Origin: Chloroflexia bacterium
GTDB taxonomy: Bacteria; Chloroflexota; Chloroflexia; QHBQ01; JADMIH01
Length of the DNA: 7,683 bases
Direction of reading: 5' to 3'
Assembly: GCA_025927935.1 (NCBI GenBank)
Contig: JAICKM010000319.1
Coordinates: 1-7,683 of the forward strand
Shown: in pieces, positions 45 to 7,683 of the stretch
How the letters are laid out: the number at the start of each line of letters is the position of its first letter
How positions within the stretch are numbered: position 1 is the first letter of the stretch
The notes under the pieces: model-generated
Told to the model about the DNA's origin: nothing
Database searches by the model: none
The model's input: the letters and a program-made list of their open reading frames with translations, nothing else
Program-made: the position numbers and the translations under genes

Positions 45-1193
45 TTAATTCGTATAAAGCCGCTCGAACAGGCTTAGCTGGCGGGTGTCGTCGCGGGCAA
101 TAAAGTCTGCGGCCCGCACCCCCAACAGGCGCAGACGGGCAGGCCCCCGTGCCCCGGCCACCTGGCGCTCGGCCAGCCAGCGCCGGAATTCGCTCAACGC
201 CGCCCGGTAGATCACTGAGGCGGTCGCGCTGGGCGCCAGCAGTGTGCGCTGGCGGGTCTGCGTACGGAAATCCGCCGTCTTGATTTTTACCGCCACACAG
301 CGGGCCAGCAAGCCCTCGGCCTCCACGGCGGCGGCCACTTCCTCAGCCAGCCCATGCAGCATGGCGGCGATCTCCGCACCCTGGTTGCTGGACAGCAACT
401 CCTCAAAGGTCGTCTCGCTGCTGATCGACTTGCTGTCGCGGTTCGGCACTACCGGGCGCGGATCATAGCCGCGCGCCAGGTCGCGCACCTCCGCGCCCCA
501 GCGGCCAAACAACGCGCGGGCCTGCTCCTCGTCCAGCGCCGCCAGTTCGCCAATCGTGGTGATGCGTAGATCGGCCAGTTGGGCTTCACGCTTCGGCCCG
601 ATGCCCCACAACGCGCTCACCGGCAGCCCGGCCAGGAATTCGGCCTCACGGCCTTCGGCCACCACCAGCAGGCCGTCGGGCTTCGAGCGGTCGCTGGCGA
701 TCTTGGCGAGCATCTTGCCTCGCGCCACGCCGAGGCTGGCCGTCAGGCCCACGGCCTCGCGGATCTGCCGCTTCAACTCCGCCGCGACCTCCATCGCCCG
801 GTCCATCGTCGGCGCGACCGCCGTGACATCCAGGAAGGCTTCGTCGAGGGCAATCGGCTCAATGCGCGTGGTGAAGCAGCGGAAGACTTCATGCACGGCG
901 CCCGACACCTCGCGGTAGAGCTTGTGGTTGCCCGGCACGACCGTCAGATCGGGGCATAGCTCCAGCGCGCGCCACAGCGGCATGGCCGAGCGCACGCCGA
1001 AGCGCCGCGCCTCGTATGATGCCGCCGCCACCACGCCGCGGCGCGACCCGGCGCCGTTCGCCACCGCCAGCGGGATACCCCGTAGCTCGGCGTTGTCGCG
1101 TTGCTCCACCGAGGCATAGAAGGCGTCCATATCGGCATGAACGATGCTCAACCCCGTCGAGGGATAGGCGTCTTCCGTCCGGTTATCACTCAT
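45..1193 (-). CDS. dinB: DNA polymerase IV (Y-family translesion polymerase, DinB)
   Basis: This 382-residue protein is a full-length Y-family polymerase that copies past damaged template bases with low fidelity. The palm begins with the metal-binding block HADMDAFYASVEQ (D21; Y26 at the steric-gate position that excludes ribonucleotides). The fingers motif YEARRFGVRSAMP follows at 60-72, and the second catalytic block IALDEAFLDVT at 114-124 carries D117 and E118. A helix-hairpin-helix thumb element (LWGIGPKREAQL) lies near 195-206 and the little-finger domain spans about 250-365. The C-terminus has QLSLF (372-376), a good match to the pentapeptide that binds the beta sliding clamp. The ATG is preceded by an AGGG six bases upstream, and about 13 extra residues precede the usual DinB start. 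The S-[IL]-D-E-A-Y core of the family reads A-L-D-E-A-F here. It is transcribed alone, away from the envelope genes, from a region full of DnaA-box-like sites. Confidence 0.96.
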   Translation of the reverse strand: MSDNRTEDAYPSTGLSIVHADMDAFYASVEQRDNAELRGIPLAVANGAGSRRGVVAAASYEARRFGVRSAMPLWRALELCPDLTVVPGNHKLYREVSGAVHEVFRCFTTRIEPIALDEAFLDVTAVAPTMDRAMEVAAELKRQIREAVGLTASLGVARGKMLAKIASDRSKPDGLLVVAEGREAEFLAGLPVSALWGIGPKREAQLADLRITTIGELAALDEEQARALFGRWGAEVRDLARGYDPRPVVPNRDSKSISSETTFEELLSSNQGAEIAAMLHGLAEEVAAAVEAEGLLARCVAVKIKTADFRTQTRQRTLLAPSATASVIYRAALSEFRRWLAERQVAGARGPARLRLLGVRAADFIARDDTRQLSLFERLYTN

Positions 1194-1310
1194 GTAACCC
1201 TGTCCAATCCCCTGATAACCCCTACGTTATCCCAACCATTGCCCAAGGTTATCCCCAGAAAAGCCCAAAACCTGTGGAAAACTTGTGGATAAGGGCTTAT
1301 TTGGGGATAA
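1182..1310. promoter_or_regulatory. Cluster of DnaA-box-like 9-mers upstream of dinB
   Basis: Compared with the classical DnaA box TTATCCACA, this stretch holds a perfect match on the minus strand at 1284-1292. There are 8/9 matches at 1273-1281 (minus, TTTTCCACA), 1302-1310 (minus, TTATCCCCA) and 1249-1257 (plus, TTATCCCCA). A 7/9 match, TTATCCCAA, lies at 1227-1235 (plus). GTTATC or its complement occurs five times (1182-1187, 1214-1219, 1226-1231, 1248-1253, 1306-1311). The two best boxes are in the same orientation with an 11-bp period, about one helical turn. The stretch between the genes is about 50% GC, while its flanks are much richer. It must contain the dinB promoter, but I see no convincing -35/-10 pair. 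A DnaA-regulated promoter, a titration site or part of a replication origin are all possible. DnaA binding is inferred only from sequence. Confidence 0.6.
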
Positions 1311-1317
1311 CTTTGGG
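1242..1317. repeat. 25-bp imperfect inverted repeat enclosing two DnaA boxes
   Basis: The arms are 1242-1266 and 1293-1317, and 22 of 25 positions pair. Each arm carries one TTATCCCCA 9-mer, facing each other. The 26-bp spacer (1267-1292) holds the two best DnaA-box matches in tandem. The right arm contains the stop codon of the vWA gene at 1297-1299 and its last codons. The spacer is long and neither side has a T-tract, so a simple intrinsic terminator is unlikely. A protein-binding array or extruded structure fits better. Confidence 0.7.
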
Positions 1318-3213
1318 ATTACCCATCCGTGGCCGCAGGCGGCGCAGGGCGCCCGCGCCGCCATGATGATACATCCACCATTCCAGCAACAGCACCAGCA
1401 GCGCCAGGGCCAGCAACCAGGGCGCCACCTCGCGCGGTCCCGTCACCGGCTGGCCGCCCGCGACCGGGCGACCTTGCAGGGCAAGGGTAGGGCGGGGCGC
1501 AATATCCGCCGCCGCGCGATCCAGCAGGTTGACGGCGAACGCCTCCGGCTCGCCCAGAGGCTTGCCCCTGGCGCTCTGGCGCACCGTGTAGAGGCCGAGT
1601 TGTGCTGTATCGGCGAAGGCCAGGTTGGGCTGCACCGGCAGGTTCACTTCGCGCGCCGGCGCATCCGGTCCCGCCGGGATGGCGATCGTCACCTGGTCGG
1701 CGTCGGGCAGGGGGTGCAGCGCCACGGCCAGGCCGGGTGTGAGCCGCGGCGGCAGATCGACGGCGCTGCCGGGGGCCAACCACTGCACCAGGTTCGCCAC
1801 CAGGATCGGGAAGGCCACCTGCAAAGCCAGATCGGTGCGGTGCAGATCGAAGGCCAGCGCCGCTACCCGCCGCCCGTCCGGCTCACCCACCAGCAGCAGC
1901 GGATCGCCCGCCGTGCTGCGGACGAGGGTGTGTGCCCAGGCCGGCGGCTGCACGCGCGCCGCTTCGGCCAGGTGGACGCCACTCAAATCGACATAACTCA
2001 GCAAAGGATCGTTGTTCTCCGTCTGTCCGATAGCCGGCGCAGTAATCGTCCCCGAAATCGGCAGCAGCGGCGAGTTGGGCGGGTTGATCAGCAGCAGATT
2101 GCCCGGCGGCAGCGTCGCGGGCAGGTAGCTGTCGAACACGGTCAGGTCGTACCCGGCGCCCGGCTTGTAGTTGGCGGGCACCACCCGATCCAGCCTCACC
2201 TGCGGCAGCAGGTTGAGCGCCTTTTCGGCGAAGCTGTTGCCCGCGCTCACCAGCAACGTCTTCGCGCTCCCCGTGGACCCGCGCACCGCCCAGGCGGTGT
2301 TGTCCAGCGGCAAGATGTCGGGCGTCTTGAGCGTCACCGTCACCTGGCGCGTGCTGATGGGCAGATCGGGCAGGGTCAGTTCGGGTTCGCCGCCCGCGGG
2401 CAGGTTCACTTGCCGCGAGTCCCAGGGCCGCCCGTCCACCTCGACCGTCAGCAGGCCCGCCACCGGTTGGCTGCCCAGGTTCGCCATGCTGACGAAGAGT
2501 TGCGGCCCTGCCGGCGCGTCGCGCAGCGCCAGCGCGGTAATGGCCGTGTTCTCGCCGCTGTGACCCACCGGGATGTAGCGCACGGCGGCGCTCACATCGG
2601 GCAGTTTCTGCTCGCCGATGGCCCCGTCGCTGATGACGATTACCGTGCTGTCCGGGGTGTTCGCCGCGGCGGCGGCCAGGGTCACAGCCGCCGTCATGTT
2701 GCTGGAGCCGTTCGCCGGGCGCAGGGCCGCGATGGCGCCACGTAGCGCGCCCTTATCCTGCGCGCCGCTGATCGCCGTGCTCGGCGCGGGACCGGCCAGG
2801 ATCACCGTCATCCGGCCACCGGAGGCCAGGCTGTCCACCAGGCCCGTAGCCTCGGCCTGGGCGCGCGCAAAGCGGGTCATCGTCCGCCCGCCGTCCGCGC
2901 CGTCGGTGGCCTGCATCCCCGCCCCGCCGTCCAGGATCACCACCACGTTGCCCGCCGCGCCGCCCGCGCCCTCCAGAAAGGGCCGCGCCAGCGCCAGCAC
3001 CAGCAGCGCCAGTATCAGCAACTGCACGTAGAGCAGGATATTGCGCCGCAACTTCTGCCAGGGCGCGTTGGCCTGCCGGTCCTGCAACACCTGGCGCCAA
3101 AGCATACTGCTTGACACGGTGATCTCCTGCCGGCGCAGGCGCAGCATGTAGAAGATGATGATCGGGATCGCCAGCAGCGCGCCCAGCAGCGCCAGGGGTT
3201 CGAGGATGCCCAC
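1297..3213 (-). CDS. BatA-like membrane protein with vWA and amidotransferase-like domains
   Basis: This 638-residue protein has the BatA architecture (aerotolerance-type N-terminal region). A first membrane helix (about 5-22) is followed by the basic stretch MLRLRRQE. A second helix (about 58-77) leads into an extracytoplasmic vWA domain (about 88-215). The region around 315-480 resembles the class-I glutamine-amidotransferase-like fold found in this family, ending in DLHRTDLALQVAFPILVANL. A last helix lies at 597-612 with a basic tail. Positive residues place both ends in the cytoplasm and the bulk outside. The MIDAS motif DxSxS is replaced by D95-G-G97-A-G99, while the flanking MQATD and the later ISDG (D196) remain, so metal binding is doubtful. 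It starts with GTG one base after the DUF58 stop codon, so translation is probably coupled. A GGAG lies 12 bases upstream, rather far for a good ribosome site. Its exact role in envelope homeostasis is unknown. Confidence 0.85.
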   Translation of the reverse strand: MGILEPLALLGALLAIPIIIFYMLRLRRQEITVSSSMLWRQVLQDRQANAPWQKLRRNILLYVQLLILALLVLALARPFLEGAGGAAGNVVVILDGGAGMQATDGADGGRTMTRFARAQAEATGLVDSLASGGRMTVILAGPAPSTAISGAQDKGALRGAIAALRPANGSSNMTAAVTLAAAAANTPDSTVIVISDGAIGEQKLPDVSAAVRYIPVGHSGENTAITALALRDAPAGPQLFVSMANLGSQPVAGLLTVEVDGRPWDSRQVNLPAGGEPELTLPDLPISTRQVTVTLKTPDILPLDNTAWAVRGSTGSAKTLLVSAGNSFAEKALNLLPQVRLDRVVPANYKPGAGYDLTVFDSYLPATLPPGNLLLINPPNSPLLPISGTITAPAIGQTENNDPLLSYVDLSGVHLAEAARVQPPAWAHTLVRSTAGDPLLLVGEPDGRRVAALAFDLHRTDLALQVAFPILVANLVQWLAPGSAVDLPPRLTPGLAVALHPLPDADQVTIAIPAGPDAPAREVNLPVQPNLAFADTAQLGLYTVRQSARGKPLGEPEAFAVNLLDRAAADIAPRPTLALQGRPVAGGQPVTGPREVAPWLLALALLVLLLEWWMYHHGGAGALRRLRPRMGNPKVIPK

Positions 3214-3214
3214 C

Positions 3215-4213
3215 TTAGCCGATTACTCCGCGGCGGCGCAGATAGTGCAGCACCAGTTCGTCGAAAGGCTCGTCGGTGGTGATTTGCAGGTAATTGATAC
3301 CGCGCCGCCGGCAGTAGTTCTCCAGCGCGCCCTGCCAGGCCGCGAATTTCTCGGCGTAGATATCGAGCAGGCCGCTGTCGATGGAGACCTCCTGGGTCTG
3401 GCCGGTCTCGCTGTCGCGCAGGCGCAGGTCGCCCAGCAGCGCCACCTCCGGGTGGACCTCGGCGGGCGCCAGGATGTGCAGCACGTGGATCTCGTGCCCC
3501 GCCGCCTGGAGGGCCGCCAGGCCCTCTGTGCCGCCCCCGGCGGTGAAGAAATCGCTGATGATGAAGCAGACGCCGGGGTAGCGCGCGAAGGCCGCGTAGG
3601 CGCGCAGCGAGGCGTCCAGGTCGGTCTCGCCGCCCGGCTGAATCCCGGCGATAAAGCGCAGCAGGTTCACGGCGTGGCCCCGCCCGCGCACCGGCGCGAA
3701 GCGGCTGATATTGCCCCGGTGGAACGCCGCCACCGTCACCCGGTCGAAGCCACTCAGCCCGATATAGCCCAGCGCCGCCGCCGTGCGCTTGCCGTAGATC
3801 AGCTTGTTCTGGTCGGCGGAGGCGGGCGTGCCGCCGCCCGGCGCGGCCACCGTGCCCAGCCCGAACACCGGCTTGTTGTCGCCCCAATCCATCGACTTGC
3901 TGCCGTCGAGCAGCACATGGATGGTGATGTCCTCTTCCTCCTGGTAGAGCTTGAGGAACAGGCGTTCCAGCCGGGCATAGGCGTTCCAGTCCACGCGCCG
4001 CAGATCGTCGCCGGGCGTATAGTCGCGGTAATCAGCAAACTCCACTGAGTTGCCGCGATGCGTGGAGCGCCGCTCGCCCTTCATCCGCCCCGCGCGCAGC
4101 TTGCGGCTGATCACGCTCAACCGCTCCAGCTTCTTCAGGAAGTTGGCGTCGAAGAGGCTCGTATAGGAAGCGGCCCCGCTACCTCCGCCCGGATTCTGGA
4201 TGTTGGTCGTCAT
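3215..4213 (-). CDS. DUF58 domain-containing protein with intact MIDAS
   Basis: This 332-residue protein carries the DUF58 signature from about residue 54: RGNSVEFADYRDYTPGDDLR, then VDWNAYARLERLFLKLYQEE. A vWA-like fold follows. Its metal site is complete: D103-x-S105-x-S107 (LLDGSKSMDW), T197 in GGETDLD and D221 in IISDFF. No membrane helix or signal peptide is evident, so it is probably cytoplasmic or peripheral. DUF58 proteins usually sit in operons with a MoxR AAA+ ATPase and Bat-type vWA membrane proteins, and are thought to help a chaperone-like or metal-insertion complex. Here the BatA-like gene follows after one base, which supports that grouping, but no MoxR gene is present. A Gly/Pro-rich insertion (about 112-135) follows the MIDAS serines. 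The ATG start has an AGGGA a few bases upstream. It lies 39 bp after the cupin stop codon and is probably cotranscribed with it. Confidence 0.92.
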   Translation of the reverse strand: MTTNIQNPGGGSGAASYTSLFDANFLKKLERLSVISRKLRAGRMKGERRSTHRGNSVEFADYRDYTPGDDLRRVDWNAYARLERLFLKLYQEEEDITIHVLLDGSKSMDWGDNKPVFGLGTVAAPGGGTPASADQNKLIYGKRTAAALGYIGLSGFDRVTVAAFHRGNISRFAPVRGRGHAVNLLRFIAGIQPGGETDLDASLRAYAAFARYPGVCFIISDFFTAGGGTEGLAALQAAGHEIHVLHILAPAEVHPEVALLGDLRLRDSETGQTQEVSIDSGLLDIYAEKFAAWQGALENYCRRRGINYLQITTDEPFDELVLHYLRRRGVIG

Positions 4214-4252: not shown

Positions 4253-4573
4253 CTACGGAACCAGCACCTTATCGCCCCGGATCATCGGGCAATGCAGCAC
4301 GAAATGGAAGTAGTCGGGTGTATTGTCCACAAACGTATGCACCTCGCCCGGCTCGACCACGATCACGTCTCCTGCCTGTAGCGTGATCCGTTGATCGTCC
4401 ACGATCATCGTGCTGCTGCCCCGCGCCACCAGGTAGACTTCGCGCAACTCGCGATGATAGTGCGGCTCGTTAATGCCCGCGTTGGCAAAGCCGATGGCGG
4501 GTAGCGCCGGCTGGAAAAGCTCCGTATACCAGCCCTTCGCGGGGCGACCCGCGTCGTTGCGCGCCAGGATCAT
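4253..4573 (-). CDS. Small single-domain cupin
   Basis: This is a 106-residue beta-barrel protein of the cupin superfamily. Motif 1 spans G33 to G52 with H38, H40 and E45. Motif 2 starts at G68-D and contains PGEVHTF with H79. All four usual metal ligands are therefore present, and a bound divalent metal is likely. The substrate cannot be told from sequence: small cupins include sugar isomerases, dioxygenases and ligand-binding proteins. The frame stays open to an ATG at 4612, but I reject that start because it lies inside the palindromic repeat. The ATG at 4573 has an excellent GAGGAGG five bases upstream. The gene lies directly before DUF58 and after the repeat-containing gap, so it looks like an accessory gene inserted into the envelope cluster. 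Confidence 0.85.
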   Translation of the reverse strand: MILARNDAGRPAKGWYTELFQPALPAIGFANAGINEPHYHRELREVYLVARGSSTMIVDDQRITLQAGDVIVVEPGEVHTFVDNTPDYFHFVLHCPMIRGDKVLVP

Positions 4574-4605: not shown

Positions 4606-4683
4606 TTGTCATTCTGAGCGGAGCGAAGAATCTCGTCGCGTACGGGTCCTAGACGAGACTCTTCGCTGCGCTCAGAGTGACAA
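4606..4683. repeat. 78-bp imperfect palindrome (dispersed-repeat type)
   Basis: The arms are 4606-4637 and 4652-4683, each 32 nt, with 29 of 32 positions pairing across a 14-nt loop. The arms start TTGTCATTCTGAGCGGAGCG and end in TGACAA. From memory, sequences of the form GTCATTCTGAGCG followed by AGCGAAGAATC recur as dispersed palindromes in many bacterial genomes, including Chloroflexota. No target-site duplication is visible at the ends. It occupies the 233-bp gap between the small membrane protein and the cupin. Any transcript crossing it would form a long hairpin, which could terminate or stabilise RNA. The rest of the gap (4684-4806) holds no gene or convincing promoter. Confidence 0.9.
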
Positions 4684-4806: not shown

Positions 4807-5175
4807 CTAGCTGCGATTTTGCCACCACAGCCGCAGCGAATTGGCGGCCAACCCGAACAGGAGTACCCCGGCACCCGCTAATACCACTGCCCCGACGACC
4901 GTGGCGCGGAAGACCGGGGGCGCGGCGGCCGGCAGCCGGGTCGCCGCCTCGACGGCGGGAGTGGGGGAGGGCGCGACGAGCAACGCGGCCAGCGCCAGGC
5001 AGAGCGCCCCGGCGACCGCGTAGAGCAGGGTGATCGCCAGTTCGTTGCGCCGCTTGCGCGCCGTGCGCACCCCGGCGCGCGCCTGGCGGCGGACGCCGCG
5101 CGCCAGCAGGCTCCAGCGCGGCCCCGCCGGCAAGAGGCCCTTGCGGCGGGACCGGCGCCGCGTGCGGCGGCTCAC
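4807..5175 (-). CDS. Small Arg-rich protein with two membrane helices, unknown function
   Basis: I do not recognise this 122-residue protein. Its first 43 residues contain 18 Arg or Lys, which should hold the N-terminus in the cytoplasm and could touch nucleic acid or phospholipid head groups. Two hydrophobic helices (about 47-68 and 91-112) are joined by an Ala/Pro loop containing SPTPAVEAATRLPAAAPP. The C-terminus, RLWWQNRS, should return to the cytoplasm. It begins with GTG overlapping the upstream stop codon (GTGA) and has only a weak ribosome site, so it depends on translational coupling with the DUF4175-like gene. That coupling suggests a partner or accessory subunit of that protein. 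The TAG stop is followed by the repeat-containing gap, so it probably ends this transcription unit. Confidence 0.75.
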   Translation of the reverse strand: MSRRTRRRSRRKGLLPAGPRWSLLARGVRRQARAGVRTARKRRNELAITLLYAVAGALCLALAALLVAPSPTPAVEAATRLPAAAPPVFRATVVGAVVLAGAGVLLFGLAANSLRLWWQNRS

Positions 5176-7028
5176 GGCGTAGGCTCGATGGCGGTGAAAT
5201 AGCGGCGCACCAGGTCTTTCATGCCCGACGGGATGTAGGTCGTGCTCAGCGTCTTTTGCGCGTTGTCGTTATACGTCCCGTAGACCTGCTGGTAGGGCAC
5301 GGTCGCGTTGCCGGTGGCCGGGTCCACGTTCACGCCGGTGACGCCGGTCTCGCCCGAATTGGGCCGGGCCGCCACGCCGACGGGCGTGCCCTGGGCGTTG
5401 AGCGTGCTGGGCGGCACGACCACCGGCTCGGTATGCTGGTTGCCCGCGCCGCTCCCGCCGACCCCACCGCCCTGGCCTTGCCCCTGACCTTGTCCCTGGC
5501 CCTGGCCTTGCCCTTGGCCCTGACCTTGCCCCTGGCCTTGGCCTTGCCCTTGGCCCTGACCTTGCCCTTGCCCCTGCACGGCCACCGGCGTGCCCTGGCC
5601 GGGGGTGCCGGGCACCAGCACCGGCGTGCCCGTCCCGGTAAACGTGCCCGGCACGACCGTCCCTGCCAGGCTCACGGACGTGCCGAGGGTCAGCGGGGTG
5701 CCGAGGGCCAGAGGCGTGCCGCCCGCGATGGGCGTGCCGCCGGGCAGTGGAGTGCCGGCGGGGGTGCCCAGCGCCACCGCCGTGCCCGGTATGGGCGTTG
5801 GGCCGGGCGTCCCGGTGGTCTGCGGCGGCTGGCCGCTGGCCGCGATGTTGTTCTTGCTGGTTTGCAGTTGGGCCAGCGCCTGGTTGAGCTCCTGCTGGGT
5901 GGCCTGCTGCTGCGCGGCTGTCCCCATCTGCTGCGCCAGGTTATCGAACGCCTGCTGAGCCGCCTTCGGGTCGCCGCTCTGCGCCGCGCGGGCCGCGTCT
6001 TCCAGGCTCTGCGCCAGCGCCGGGTCGTTGGCCGCAGCCTCGGCGGCGGCCTGGCGCATTCCCTCGGCCAGCGCCTGGCGATCCGCCGGCGACATTTTCA
6101 CCGCGTCGGCTCCGGCTTGCTTCAGATCCTTGGCCGCCTCCTGGCTGTCGCCGCGCTGGAGCGCCTTCCCGGCCTCGCCCAGGGCGCCCGGCTGTCCGGC
6201 CATGCGTTGCGCCAGGGCATCCATCGCCGCTTGCTCGCCCGGCGCGCGGGGGTCGATCTGCTTTTGCAGCGCCGCCTCCGCGTCCGACAGGCGGGCCATC
6301 GCCTGATCGCGGCTCAGGTTGCCCGCCTGGAGATCGTGGTGCAGTTGATCAAGCTGGGCCAGCAACTCCTGTTTGGCCGGATCGTTCGCGCCGGGCCGGG
6401 CGGCCAGGTCCTTGCGCAACTGCTCGATCTTCTCGGCCTCGGCCTGCTGTTGCTGGCGGATGGCGTTTTGCTCGTCCCAGTAGCCCTGCAACGGGTTGGG
6501 CGCCAGCAGGGCCGCGCCGAAGGCGCCCAGCAGCAGCACCGGCAGCAGCAGCGCCGTGCGCCCCGGCGCCAGCGGCACGCGCGCCGGCAGATCCGGAAGC
6601 GCGCGCTCCAGGCTGGCGCTTGCGTCGGCAAGTTGCGCCGCGCGCAGCATCGGCGCTTCACCGGCCCACGGGCGGTCATGAGCCTCGACGGCGGTCGCCA
6701 CCTTCTCATCTAGCGCTAGCAGGGCATCGGCCCGGCGGGCCACGCCCAGGCGCGGGCGGGCGCGCAGCACGGCGTAGGCGGTGCGCCCGCCCACCGCCCC
6801 GATCAGCAGCACGGCTGCGACTCCGGCAACTTCTACTGGAGGCAGGATGGGCGCGAGACGCGCGGCCACTGCCAGCAGGATCGCCAGCGCCAGCGCCACA
6901 GTCCCGGCCAGGGGTGCGCCCTGCACGGCGTCTTGCCGGCGCAGGCGGCGCTCCACGACGCCCAGCGCCCGCAATAGCGCGGCATAGGGCGTGGCGGTCG
7001 TGTCTACCGGCGGCACGGTGCGCTGCAT
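5172..7028 (-). CDS. DUF4175-like membrane-anchored coiled-coil protein with repeat linker
   Basis: This 618-residue protein has three predicted membrane helices (about 40-59, 64-81 and 158-177). The first two are followed by a basic, probably cytoplasmic segment (RARPRLGVARR), which places residues after 178 outside the membrane. A long Gln/Ala/Glu-rich helical region (about 183-395) follows, probably coiled coil. Then come a Gly-Thr-Pro linker (about 406-484), an 18-unit Gln-Gly tract (485-520) and a C-terminal module with VPYQQVYGTYNDNAQ and DLVRRYF. This layout matches my recollection of DUF4175-type proteins found near DUF58 and vWA genes, but I could not confirm the family by alignment. 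The ATG directly follows the permease stop codon (TAAATG) and has GGGAG eight bases upstream. The next gene overlaps its stop by four bases. A structural or scaffolding role in the envelope is an inference. Confidence 0.8.
   Translation of the reverse strand: MQRTVPPVDTTATPYAALLRALGVVERRLRRQDAVQGAPLAGTVALALAILLAVAARLAPILPPVEVAGVAAVLLIGAVGGRTAYAVLRARPRLGVARRADALLALDEKVATAVEAHDRPWAGEAPMLRAAQLADASASLERALPDLPARVPLAPGRTALLLPVLLLGAFGAALLAPNPLQGYWDEQNAIRQQQQAEAEKIEQLRKDLAARPGANDPAKQELLAQLDQLHHDLQAGNLSRDQAMARLSDAEAALQKQIDPRAPGEQAAMDALAQRMAGQPGALGEAGKALQRGDSQEAAKDLKQAGADAVKMSPADRQALAEGMRQAAAEAAANDPALAQSLEDAARAAQSGDPKAAQQAFDNLAQQMGTAAQQQATQQELNQALAQLQTSKNNIAASGQPPQTTGTPGPTPIPGTAVALGTPAGTPLPGGTPIAGGTPLALGTPLTLGTSVSLAGTVVPGTFTGTGTPVLVPGTPGQGTPVAVQGQGQGQGQGQGQGQGQGQGQGQGQGQGQGQGQGQGGGVGGSGAGNQHTEPVVVPPSTLNAQGTPVGVAARPNSGETGVTGVNVDPATGNATVPYQQVYGTYNDNAQKTLSTTYIPSGMKDLVRRYFTAIEPTP
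5469..5576 (-). repeat. Gln-Gly tandem repeat, 18 units, with 36-bp higher-order period
   Basis: The minus strand encodes 18 consecutive Gln-Gly dipeptides using mixed codons (CAA/CAG with GGC/GGG/GGT/GGA). Units 3-8 and 9-14 are identical at 34 of 36 bases, and units 15-18 continue the pattern imperfectly. The tract therefore grew in part by duplicating six-unit blocks. It should be a flexible, uncharged extracytoplasmic linker. Confidence 0.95.
5577..5813 (-). repeat. Degenerate Gly-Thr-Pro linker repeats
   Basis: This part of the DUF4175-like gene encodes about 79 residues in which Gly-Thr-Pro occurs nine times at irregular 4- to 24-residue intervals. Related Gly-Thr-x triplets (GTA, GTS, GTV, GTF) occur between them. 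It forms a low-complexity stalk between the helical region and the Gln-Gly tract. The repeated codons appear as many GGCGTGCC copies on the plus strand. Confidence 0.85.
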
Positions 7029-7683
7029 TTATCCGGCTCCCATCGGCGGGGGTGGTGGCCCCGCGGCCCCGGCGGGCGGGCCAGCAGACGGCTCCGCCGG
7101 GGCAGGTTCATGCGGCCGCACCGGTTGCCCAGTGATATGCACAGGCGGAGGAGGCGGCACAGGCACCGGCGCACCTTCCAGCGGCGGCGCCACCAGCGCG
7201 GCGCCCGGCCCGCCGGGCAGGCTCGGCGGCACCCGCCGCGGTGCGCCCTGGCTGCGCACCAGCGGCAGGCGCCGGATGCTCCACCACAACACAATCAGGC
7301 TGCCCACCAGGGCAAAGAGGCAGTATGCGATCCACGGATGCAAGACCGGCAGGCTCTGGCCGTTGACGATGTTGGTATCGAAGAAAAAGAACAGCGGCTT
7401 GCCCTGGCGCAGATAGTTCTCGCTCAATCCCATAGCGATCAGGGGATTGGTCGAGAGCAAGATGCCCGAAAAATAGATGAACGGAATATTGTTCGACAGC
7501 GCCGAGCCATTACCGTTCGCGCCGAGGATGATTGTTGCGATGAACCAGAGGAACGGCAGCCCGGCCAGCATCAGCAGCAGCGTGCCGTAGGACAGCACCG
7601 TGGACGCCGCCGTGCTGCGCATCAGGCTCGACCAGAAGATGCCGATGCTGCCGTAGAACAGCGCGGCGCAAATCAGCACCACC
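7029..7683 (-). CDS. ABC-2 type transporter permease, C-terminal part (truncated by window edge)
   Basis: Only the last 217 residues are in the window. The open GTG at the edge is probably an internal Val codon rather than the start. The visible part has hydrophobic helices at about 1-16, 28-53, 66-85 and 117-136. GIFWSSLMRSTAASTVLSYG resembles the conserved stretch after the cytoplasmic loop in ABC-2 permeases, and a large hydrophilic loop (about 86-116) precedes the last helix. An export role, with an ATPase encoded further upstream outside the window, is expected from the family. After the last helix comes a basic RRLPLVR and then a proline-rich tail, 27 Pro in 81 residues (137-217), probably cytoplasmic and disordered. 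The stop codon abuts the ATG of the DUF4175-like gene, so the two are cotranscribed. The substrate is unknown. Confidence 0.75.
   Translation of the reverse strand, partial: VVLICAALFYGSIGIFWSSLMRSTAASTVLSYGTLLLMLAGLPFLWFIATIILGANGNGSALSNNIPFIYFSGILLSTNPLIAMGLSENYLRQGKPLFFFFDTNIVNGQSLPVLHPWIAYCLFALVGSLIVLWWSIRRLPLVRSQGAPRRVPPSLPGGPGAALVAPPLEGAPVPVPPPPPVHITGQPVRPHEPAPAEPSAGPPAGAAGPPPPPMGAG

Follow-up and report, generated by a model that had tools for sequence, protein, structure and literature searches.

Introduction

In bipartite bacterial origins, as outlined in excerpts of two papers (PMC5043019, PMC7561715), DnaA-box clusters lie on both sides of dnaA and unwinding takes place in the downstream cluster. 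DnaA boxes also serve in gene control, and the available parts of two other papers (PMC8203912, PMC6015884) report that DnaA regulates its own gene, polA and, together with LexA, uvrB and recN. Here we analyse a stretch of 7,683 nucleotides from a Chloroflexia bacterium (hereafter the window), in which a cluster of DnaA boxes is located just upstream of the start of dinB, and compare it with the batA-dnaA region of related genomes and with both kinds of described system.

Results

A dense DnaA-box cluster between batA and dinB

All genes of the window are on the minus strand, in the order ABC-permease-like protein, 618-aa GQ-rich protein, 122-aa protein, cupin, DUF58 gene, batA, box cluster and dinB (Table 1). 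The cluster consists of five TTATCCACA-like 9-mers, two on the plus strand and three on the minus strand, which span 84 bp (1227-1310). The initial annotation had described one perfect, three 8/9 and one 7/9 match in both orientations within about 85 bp, the two best of them 11 bp apart on the same strand (1273-1281 and 1284-1292), and each of these details is reproduced. The cluster is intergenic only in part, because the box at 1302-1310 falls inside the batA ORF (1297-3213).

Four boxes of 8/9 or better lie within 120 bp. Outside the cluster, the window has a single 8/9 match, at 4323, and a single 7/9 match, at 7135. Shuffling 1182-1310 with its dinucleotides preserved never reproduced the observed box counts (0/2000). 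Random anagrams of the motif never give four matches of 8/9 or better (0/2000), and the best of them gives three, once. We rejected chance as the source of the cluster, since 0/2000 shuffles are as dense, and by the same count 1182-1310 carries the dense DnaA-box cluster that is looked for in a bacterial oriC. The earlier claim of a density above chance therefore stands, while its description of the surroundings as GC-rich DNA does not apply to the cluster itself, which has 45% GC. The hexamer GTTATC/GATAAC occurs six times in the window, five of them in 1182-1310 (at 1182, 1214, 1226, 1248 and 1306) and the sixth at 5940. Further along the window, an imperfect palindrome at 4609-4682 (TCATTCTGAGCGGAGCGAAGAATCTCGTC ... 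GACGAGACTCTTCGCTGCGCTCAGAGTGACA) was spotted by eye at the start of the cupin ORF and upstream of it, and could be a dispersed repeat; a run of GQ-coding repeats is present at 5460-5580 in the 618-aa protein.

Table 1. Features of the window
Feature	Position	Strand	Remarks
dinB, DNA polymerase IV	45-1193	-	occupies the place of dnaA in six relatives
Proposed oriC1-like DnaA-binding region	1182-1320		45% GC versus 69% GC for the window
Weak DnaA box TTATCCCAA	1227-1235	+	7/9
Inverted repeat	1242-1317		arms 1242-1266 and 1293-1317, 25 nt, 88%
DnaA box TTATCCCCA	1249-1257	+	8/9
DnaA box TTTTCCACA	1273-1281	-	8/9; start 11 bp from the 9/9 box, same strand
DnaA box TTATCCACA	1284-1292	-	9/9
batA-like gene, BatA N-terminal and VWA domains	1297-3213	-	homologue precedes boxes and dnaA in six relatives
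DnaA box TTATCCCCA	1302-1310	-	8/9; within the final codons of the batA ORF
DUF58 gene	3215-4213	-	upstream neighbour of batA in the window and six relatives
618-aa protein with GQ-rich tract	5172-7028	-	GQ-rich 636-aa protein in the matching G293 operon
ABC-permease-like protein	7029-7682	-	weak match (24.8%, E 9e-6) to ABC permease of the G293 operon

The region 1182-1320 contains the lowest-GC 100-mers and the least stable 50-mers of the whole window. Beside the boxes this amounts to a relative AT enrichment only, with neither an AT-rich unwinding element nor a DnaA-trio: a DnaA-trio scan of 1151-1330 finds no run, and a TTTCCAC/TATTACT-type block is absent from both strands of the window, in agreement with the annotation, which had seen no clear unwinding element. 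The site is therefore not classed as a complete oriC. The missing element fits an oriC1-type half, as such a block is located downstream of dnaA in four of six relatives. The GC skew inside the window is uninformative, and a blastn search of plasmids with 1150-1360 gives no match.

The arms of the inverted repeat carry both TTATCCCCA boxes, and its 26-nt centre carries the two best boxes. As single-stranded DNA, the stretch 1238-1321 has a fold of -18.1 kcal/mol (z -4.5), which is better than 200 of 200 shuffles. This fold, and the overlap of the 25-nt repeat with the batA stop, would suit an RNA end signal of the batA operon whose likeness to DnaA boxes is incidental. We regard such a signal as very unlikely, since the repeat has no terminator-like T run, Rfam gives no match at gathering score, and the two best boxes are placed outside the arms. 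Moreover, the related genomes G454 and G293 have box groups at the same place with no closely spaced 25-nt repeat, G293 having a shorter 13-nt perfect repeat.

The batA-boxes-dnaA arrangement in related genomes

BatA was searched in a 400-genome phylum sample, in which 165 genomes have a match, and in the orders of G293 and G454. The six best E-values among the genomes searched belong to G293, G448, G449, G450, G451 and G454; G293 is the best match within the phylum sample, and G454 (45%) has the best E-value of all. In each of the six genomes batA is followed by DnaA boxes and then by dnaA, which corresponds to five of five genomes searched in the order of G293 and one of one in the order of G454. 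The first 1 kb after batA contains eight boxes of 8/9 or better in G293, six in G448, five each in G449 and G450, ten in G451 and four in G454. The batA-dnaA gaps of the relatives measure about 0.9-1.0 kb, and the window cluster is compact at 84 bp. The boxes of G454 are sparse, at most two within 120 bp, and the last of its four lies just inside dnaA. In G293, 896 bp separate the end of batA from the end of a 2,961,161-bp contig whose base 1 is the start of dnaA. The order there is batA, boxes, dnaA provided that this contig is circular, which a first base at dnaA suggests. The DUF58 genes that precede batA in the window and in G293 share 49.7% identity, and both regions contain same-strand box pairs 10-11 bp apart. 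A tblastn search of the G293 operon region with the 618-aa GQ-rich protein of the window gives no match.

Boxes are not a general companion of batA homologues in the control loci. Among 19 other loci, taken from the best 20 BatA matches of the 165 matching genomes, 17 have at least 1 kb downstream and the remaining two end early at contig ends; 15 of these 17 have no box and two have one box. A search for DnaA covered 28 genomes. In 13 of them the best BatA match shares a contig with DnaA at a distance of 254 kb or more (linear coordinates), in 13 others the two are on different contigs, in G454 they are neighbours, and G018 yielded no match to DnaA. The large genomes G284, G305, G326, G129, G357 and G333 (7.4-11.3 Mb) each have a contig with two strong matches to DnaA domains. 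By its position after batA, the window cluster occupies the conserved place upstream of dnaA that an oriC1-type cluster has, with dnaA itself outside the window.

Boxes downstream of dnaA and GC skew in the relatives

Within 1.3 kb downstream of dnaA, five to nine boxes are present in five of the six relatives, and G451 has one. A TTTCCAC / TATTACT / AT-rich block follows dnaA in G293, G448, G449 and G454, and a stricter form of the pattern is matched in G293 and G454 only. The DnaA-trio scan downstream of dnaA, applied to two genomes, finds a run in G454 and none in G293. The block resembles the order of box and DnaA-trio in the basal unwinding system, as that system is presented in excerpts of PMC6669920.

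The GC skew of G293 was read from twenty 20-kb samples of contig 1 (400 kb of 2.96 Mb), which have 44-49% GC. The skew is positive in five of the first six stretches, negative in all of the last five and mixed in the nine between, and the summed skew is minimal at the contig end. The change from negative to positive is located between 2,892,000 and 60,001, a 129-kb interval that contains the batA-dnaA junction. Across the 400 kb sampled, boxes of 8/9 or better number 92, with a maximum of two within 150 bp; the junction has four within 150 bp. The resemblance of the window cluster to an origin, which the initial annotation had pointed out, is supported by this skew change and by the boxes that stand between batA and dnaA in the six relatives.

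Probable location of dnaA relative to the window

The window contains no dnaA gene, as had been stated before. The protein database reports the longest contig per entry, and probable linkage of genes was read from identical bp values. A contig value of 13,931 bp is common to the DinB of the window (P0001) and a DnaA (P0246), which scores above the cut-off of TIGR00362. Values of 14,905, 95,140 and 655,751 bp are each common to a DinB, a BatA and a DnaA; 11,951 bp is common to a DinB and a DnaA, and 61,240 and 5,593 bp are each common to a DinB and a BatA. At 5 kb or more, about 0.15 DinB-DnaA matches are expected by chance, as estimated from pairs differing by 1-20 bases, and five were found, all of them among DinB hits of at least 66% identity. 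The BatA-DnaA matches at 1,946 and 2,162 bp, which are too short for both genes, indicate that chance matches do occur among short contigs. Among the 120 matches listed for each protein, there is no BatA at 13,931 bp and no DnaA at 61,240 or 5,593 bp. The best BatA hit, P0121 (94%), comes from a 6,442-bp contig. DinB relatives of 65-95% identity are present among the database proteins, one of them labelled 'Chloroflexia bacterium'. Judging from equal contig values only, dnaA is probably within 13.9 kb of the window dinB, and the synteny suggests that it would probably lie on the far side of dinB.

This probable linkage bears on the reading that the cluster is a relic or a DnaA-titrating site, in which the functional origin relocated together with dnaA and boxes were left at the ancestral position. 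Such a site would agree with the absence of dnaA and of an unwinding element from the window and with a cluster shorter than the batA-dnaA gaps of the relatives. It appears quite improbable in view of the 13,931-bp value that the window DinB has in common with a DnaA, of the three further values common to DinB, BatA and DnaA, the shortest of which is 14,905 bp, and of the four boxes of 8/9 or better.

dinB and DnaA boxes elsewhere

The location of the cluster immediately before dinB, and the regulation by DnaA of its own gene and of repair genes described above, suggest another function, in which the boxes would act solely as a promoter or operator through which DnaA controls dinB, or a joint dinB-dnaA transcription unit, and would be no part of a working origin. 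The genomic context of dinB in other genomes argues against it. G454 has the best DinB match (58%) among the 158 genomes of the class and the only one at 1e-90, and is the nearest genome whose dinB DNA was read. Its dinB is located elsewhere than batA-dnaA; the 4 kb upstream of it are free of 8/9 boxes, and one such box lies inside the gene. In the 331-genome phylum sample only G454 matches DinB at 1e-100; in the 400-genome sample the one match at 1e-90 is G355 (52%), which is not among the genomes of that sample with a BatA match. For 199 genomes in the class of G323 the DinB search came back empty at 1e-90, a return that carries no weight as a negative. A distant set was formed from the 80 retained of 410 dinB loci in genome contigs (best identity 49%), and none of the 80 has a box of 8/9 within 300 bp upstream (275 bp in one locus); boxes are therefore not a usual feature of dinB. 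No BatA match was found in the 83 loci searched for it, and a search of viral contigs with BatA and DinB gave no relative. Conversely, the six related genomes have boxes between batA and dnaA and no dinB match in the gap region. A sigma-70-like promoter was not found in 1150-1450, which is a weak test in this phylum. The reading that the boxes serve dinB alone is thus the weaker one, because boxes accompany batA and dnaA in six genomes and dinB has no close upstream box in G454 or in the 80 distant loci, and we hold it to be unlikely.

Tandem boxes also occur away from dnaA in the class, a point in favour of promoter control. Pairs with an 11-bp spacing were found 14 times, in 12 of the 158 class genomes, and no dnaA, batA or dinB match was found in the flanks of these places (up to 1.5 kb a side, less at contig ends). 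The tandem-box pair alone was accordingly rejected as a marker of origins, since these places indicate that a pair by itself is no proof of one. The same tandem-box pattern was found in 26 stretches of viral contigs. In two loci, L141 and L143 (of G407 and G364), two boxes 11 bp apart lie near base 1510, upstream of an ORF. The start of this ORF (HVHSEYSLLDG) resembles DnaE, and boxes in front of a DnaE-like ORF hint that further replication genes of the class may be controlled by DnaA.

Discussion

The conserved position of the boxes after batA, together with their density, makes it highly probable that the cluster is the batA-side, oriC1-like DnaA-binding half of a dnaA-linked bipartite chromosome origin, with dinB adjacent. 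In such an origin, the tandem and inverted boxes where batA ends would be occupied by DnaA, which would then oligomerise. Looping by the bound DnaA would aid DnaA loading on the far side of dnaA, at a second box cluster with an AT-rich unwinding block. The gene directly after the batA-side cluster in this clade would be dinB, in the place of dnaA, and the probable order would be batA, boxes, dinB, dnaA, and finally boxes and unwinding block. The site would thereby serve the organism of the window as its origin; DnaA binding and looping at the cluster, and an effect of the boxes on the transcription of dinB and dnaA, are predictions of this arrangement.

Control of dinB by DnaA is possible, and an origin role and regulation of dinB by the boxes can coexist. 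A more far-reaching and tentative proposal, which we consider somewhat doubtful, is that dinB has entered the bipartite origin, with the oriC1 boxes on one side and dnaA on the other, and is co-transcribed with dnaA from a region bound by DnaA, in which case the dosage and expression of pol IV would track initiation and DnaA autoregulation. With an error-prone polymerase gene next to a probable origin, the locus is a specific case that lends itself to experiment. From a fragment of 7.7 kb, the probable origin can be placed for a clade of Chloroflexia that is poorly sampled, and the batA-boxes-dnaA arrangement is seen in two neighbouring orders. In the literature on Chloroflexi/Chloroflexota origins and on dinB with DnaA boxes, the arrangement appears in no title or abstract opening among the matches listed, with subscription papers mostly outside this scope.

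A close counterpart is the origin region of G293, which has the same DUF58-batA pair, boxes directly after batA and same-strand pairs 10-11 bp apart. It differs from the window in that dnaA follows directly, after an 896-bp gap with eight boxes and no dinB, in a genome with 44-49% GC in the stretches sampled. Compared with DnaA-regulated promoters, as far as those of dnaA, nrdAB and uvrB are covered in the excerpts of PMC8203912 and PMC6015884, the window likewise has a replication or repair gene that is preceded by several boxes; however, the position of the cluster tracks the batA-dnaA synteny and not dinB. The relatives resemble the origins of Bacillus subtilis, Helicobacter pylori and Clostridioides difficile, as portrayed in the available portions of the papers on bipartite origins, in that boxes flank dnaA (downstream in five of six) and an unwinding-like block is present in four of six. 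In contrast to the bipartite origins described in those portions, the upstream neighbour is a DUF58-batA operon and not rpmH or ruvC, and the window has dinB between its cluster and the presumed dnaA. The mixed orientation of the boxes and their closely spaced pairs are shared with the bipartite, dnaA-flanking origins, again as these portions describe them.
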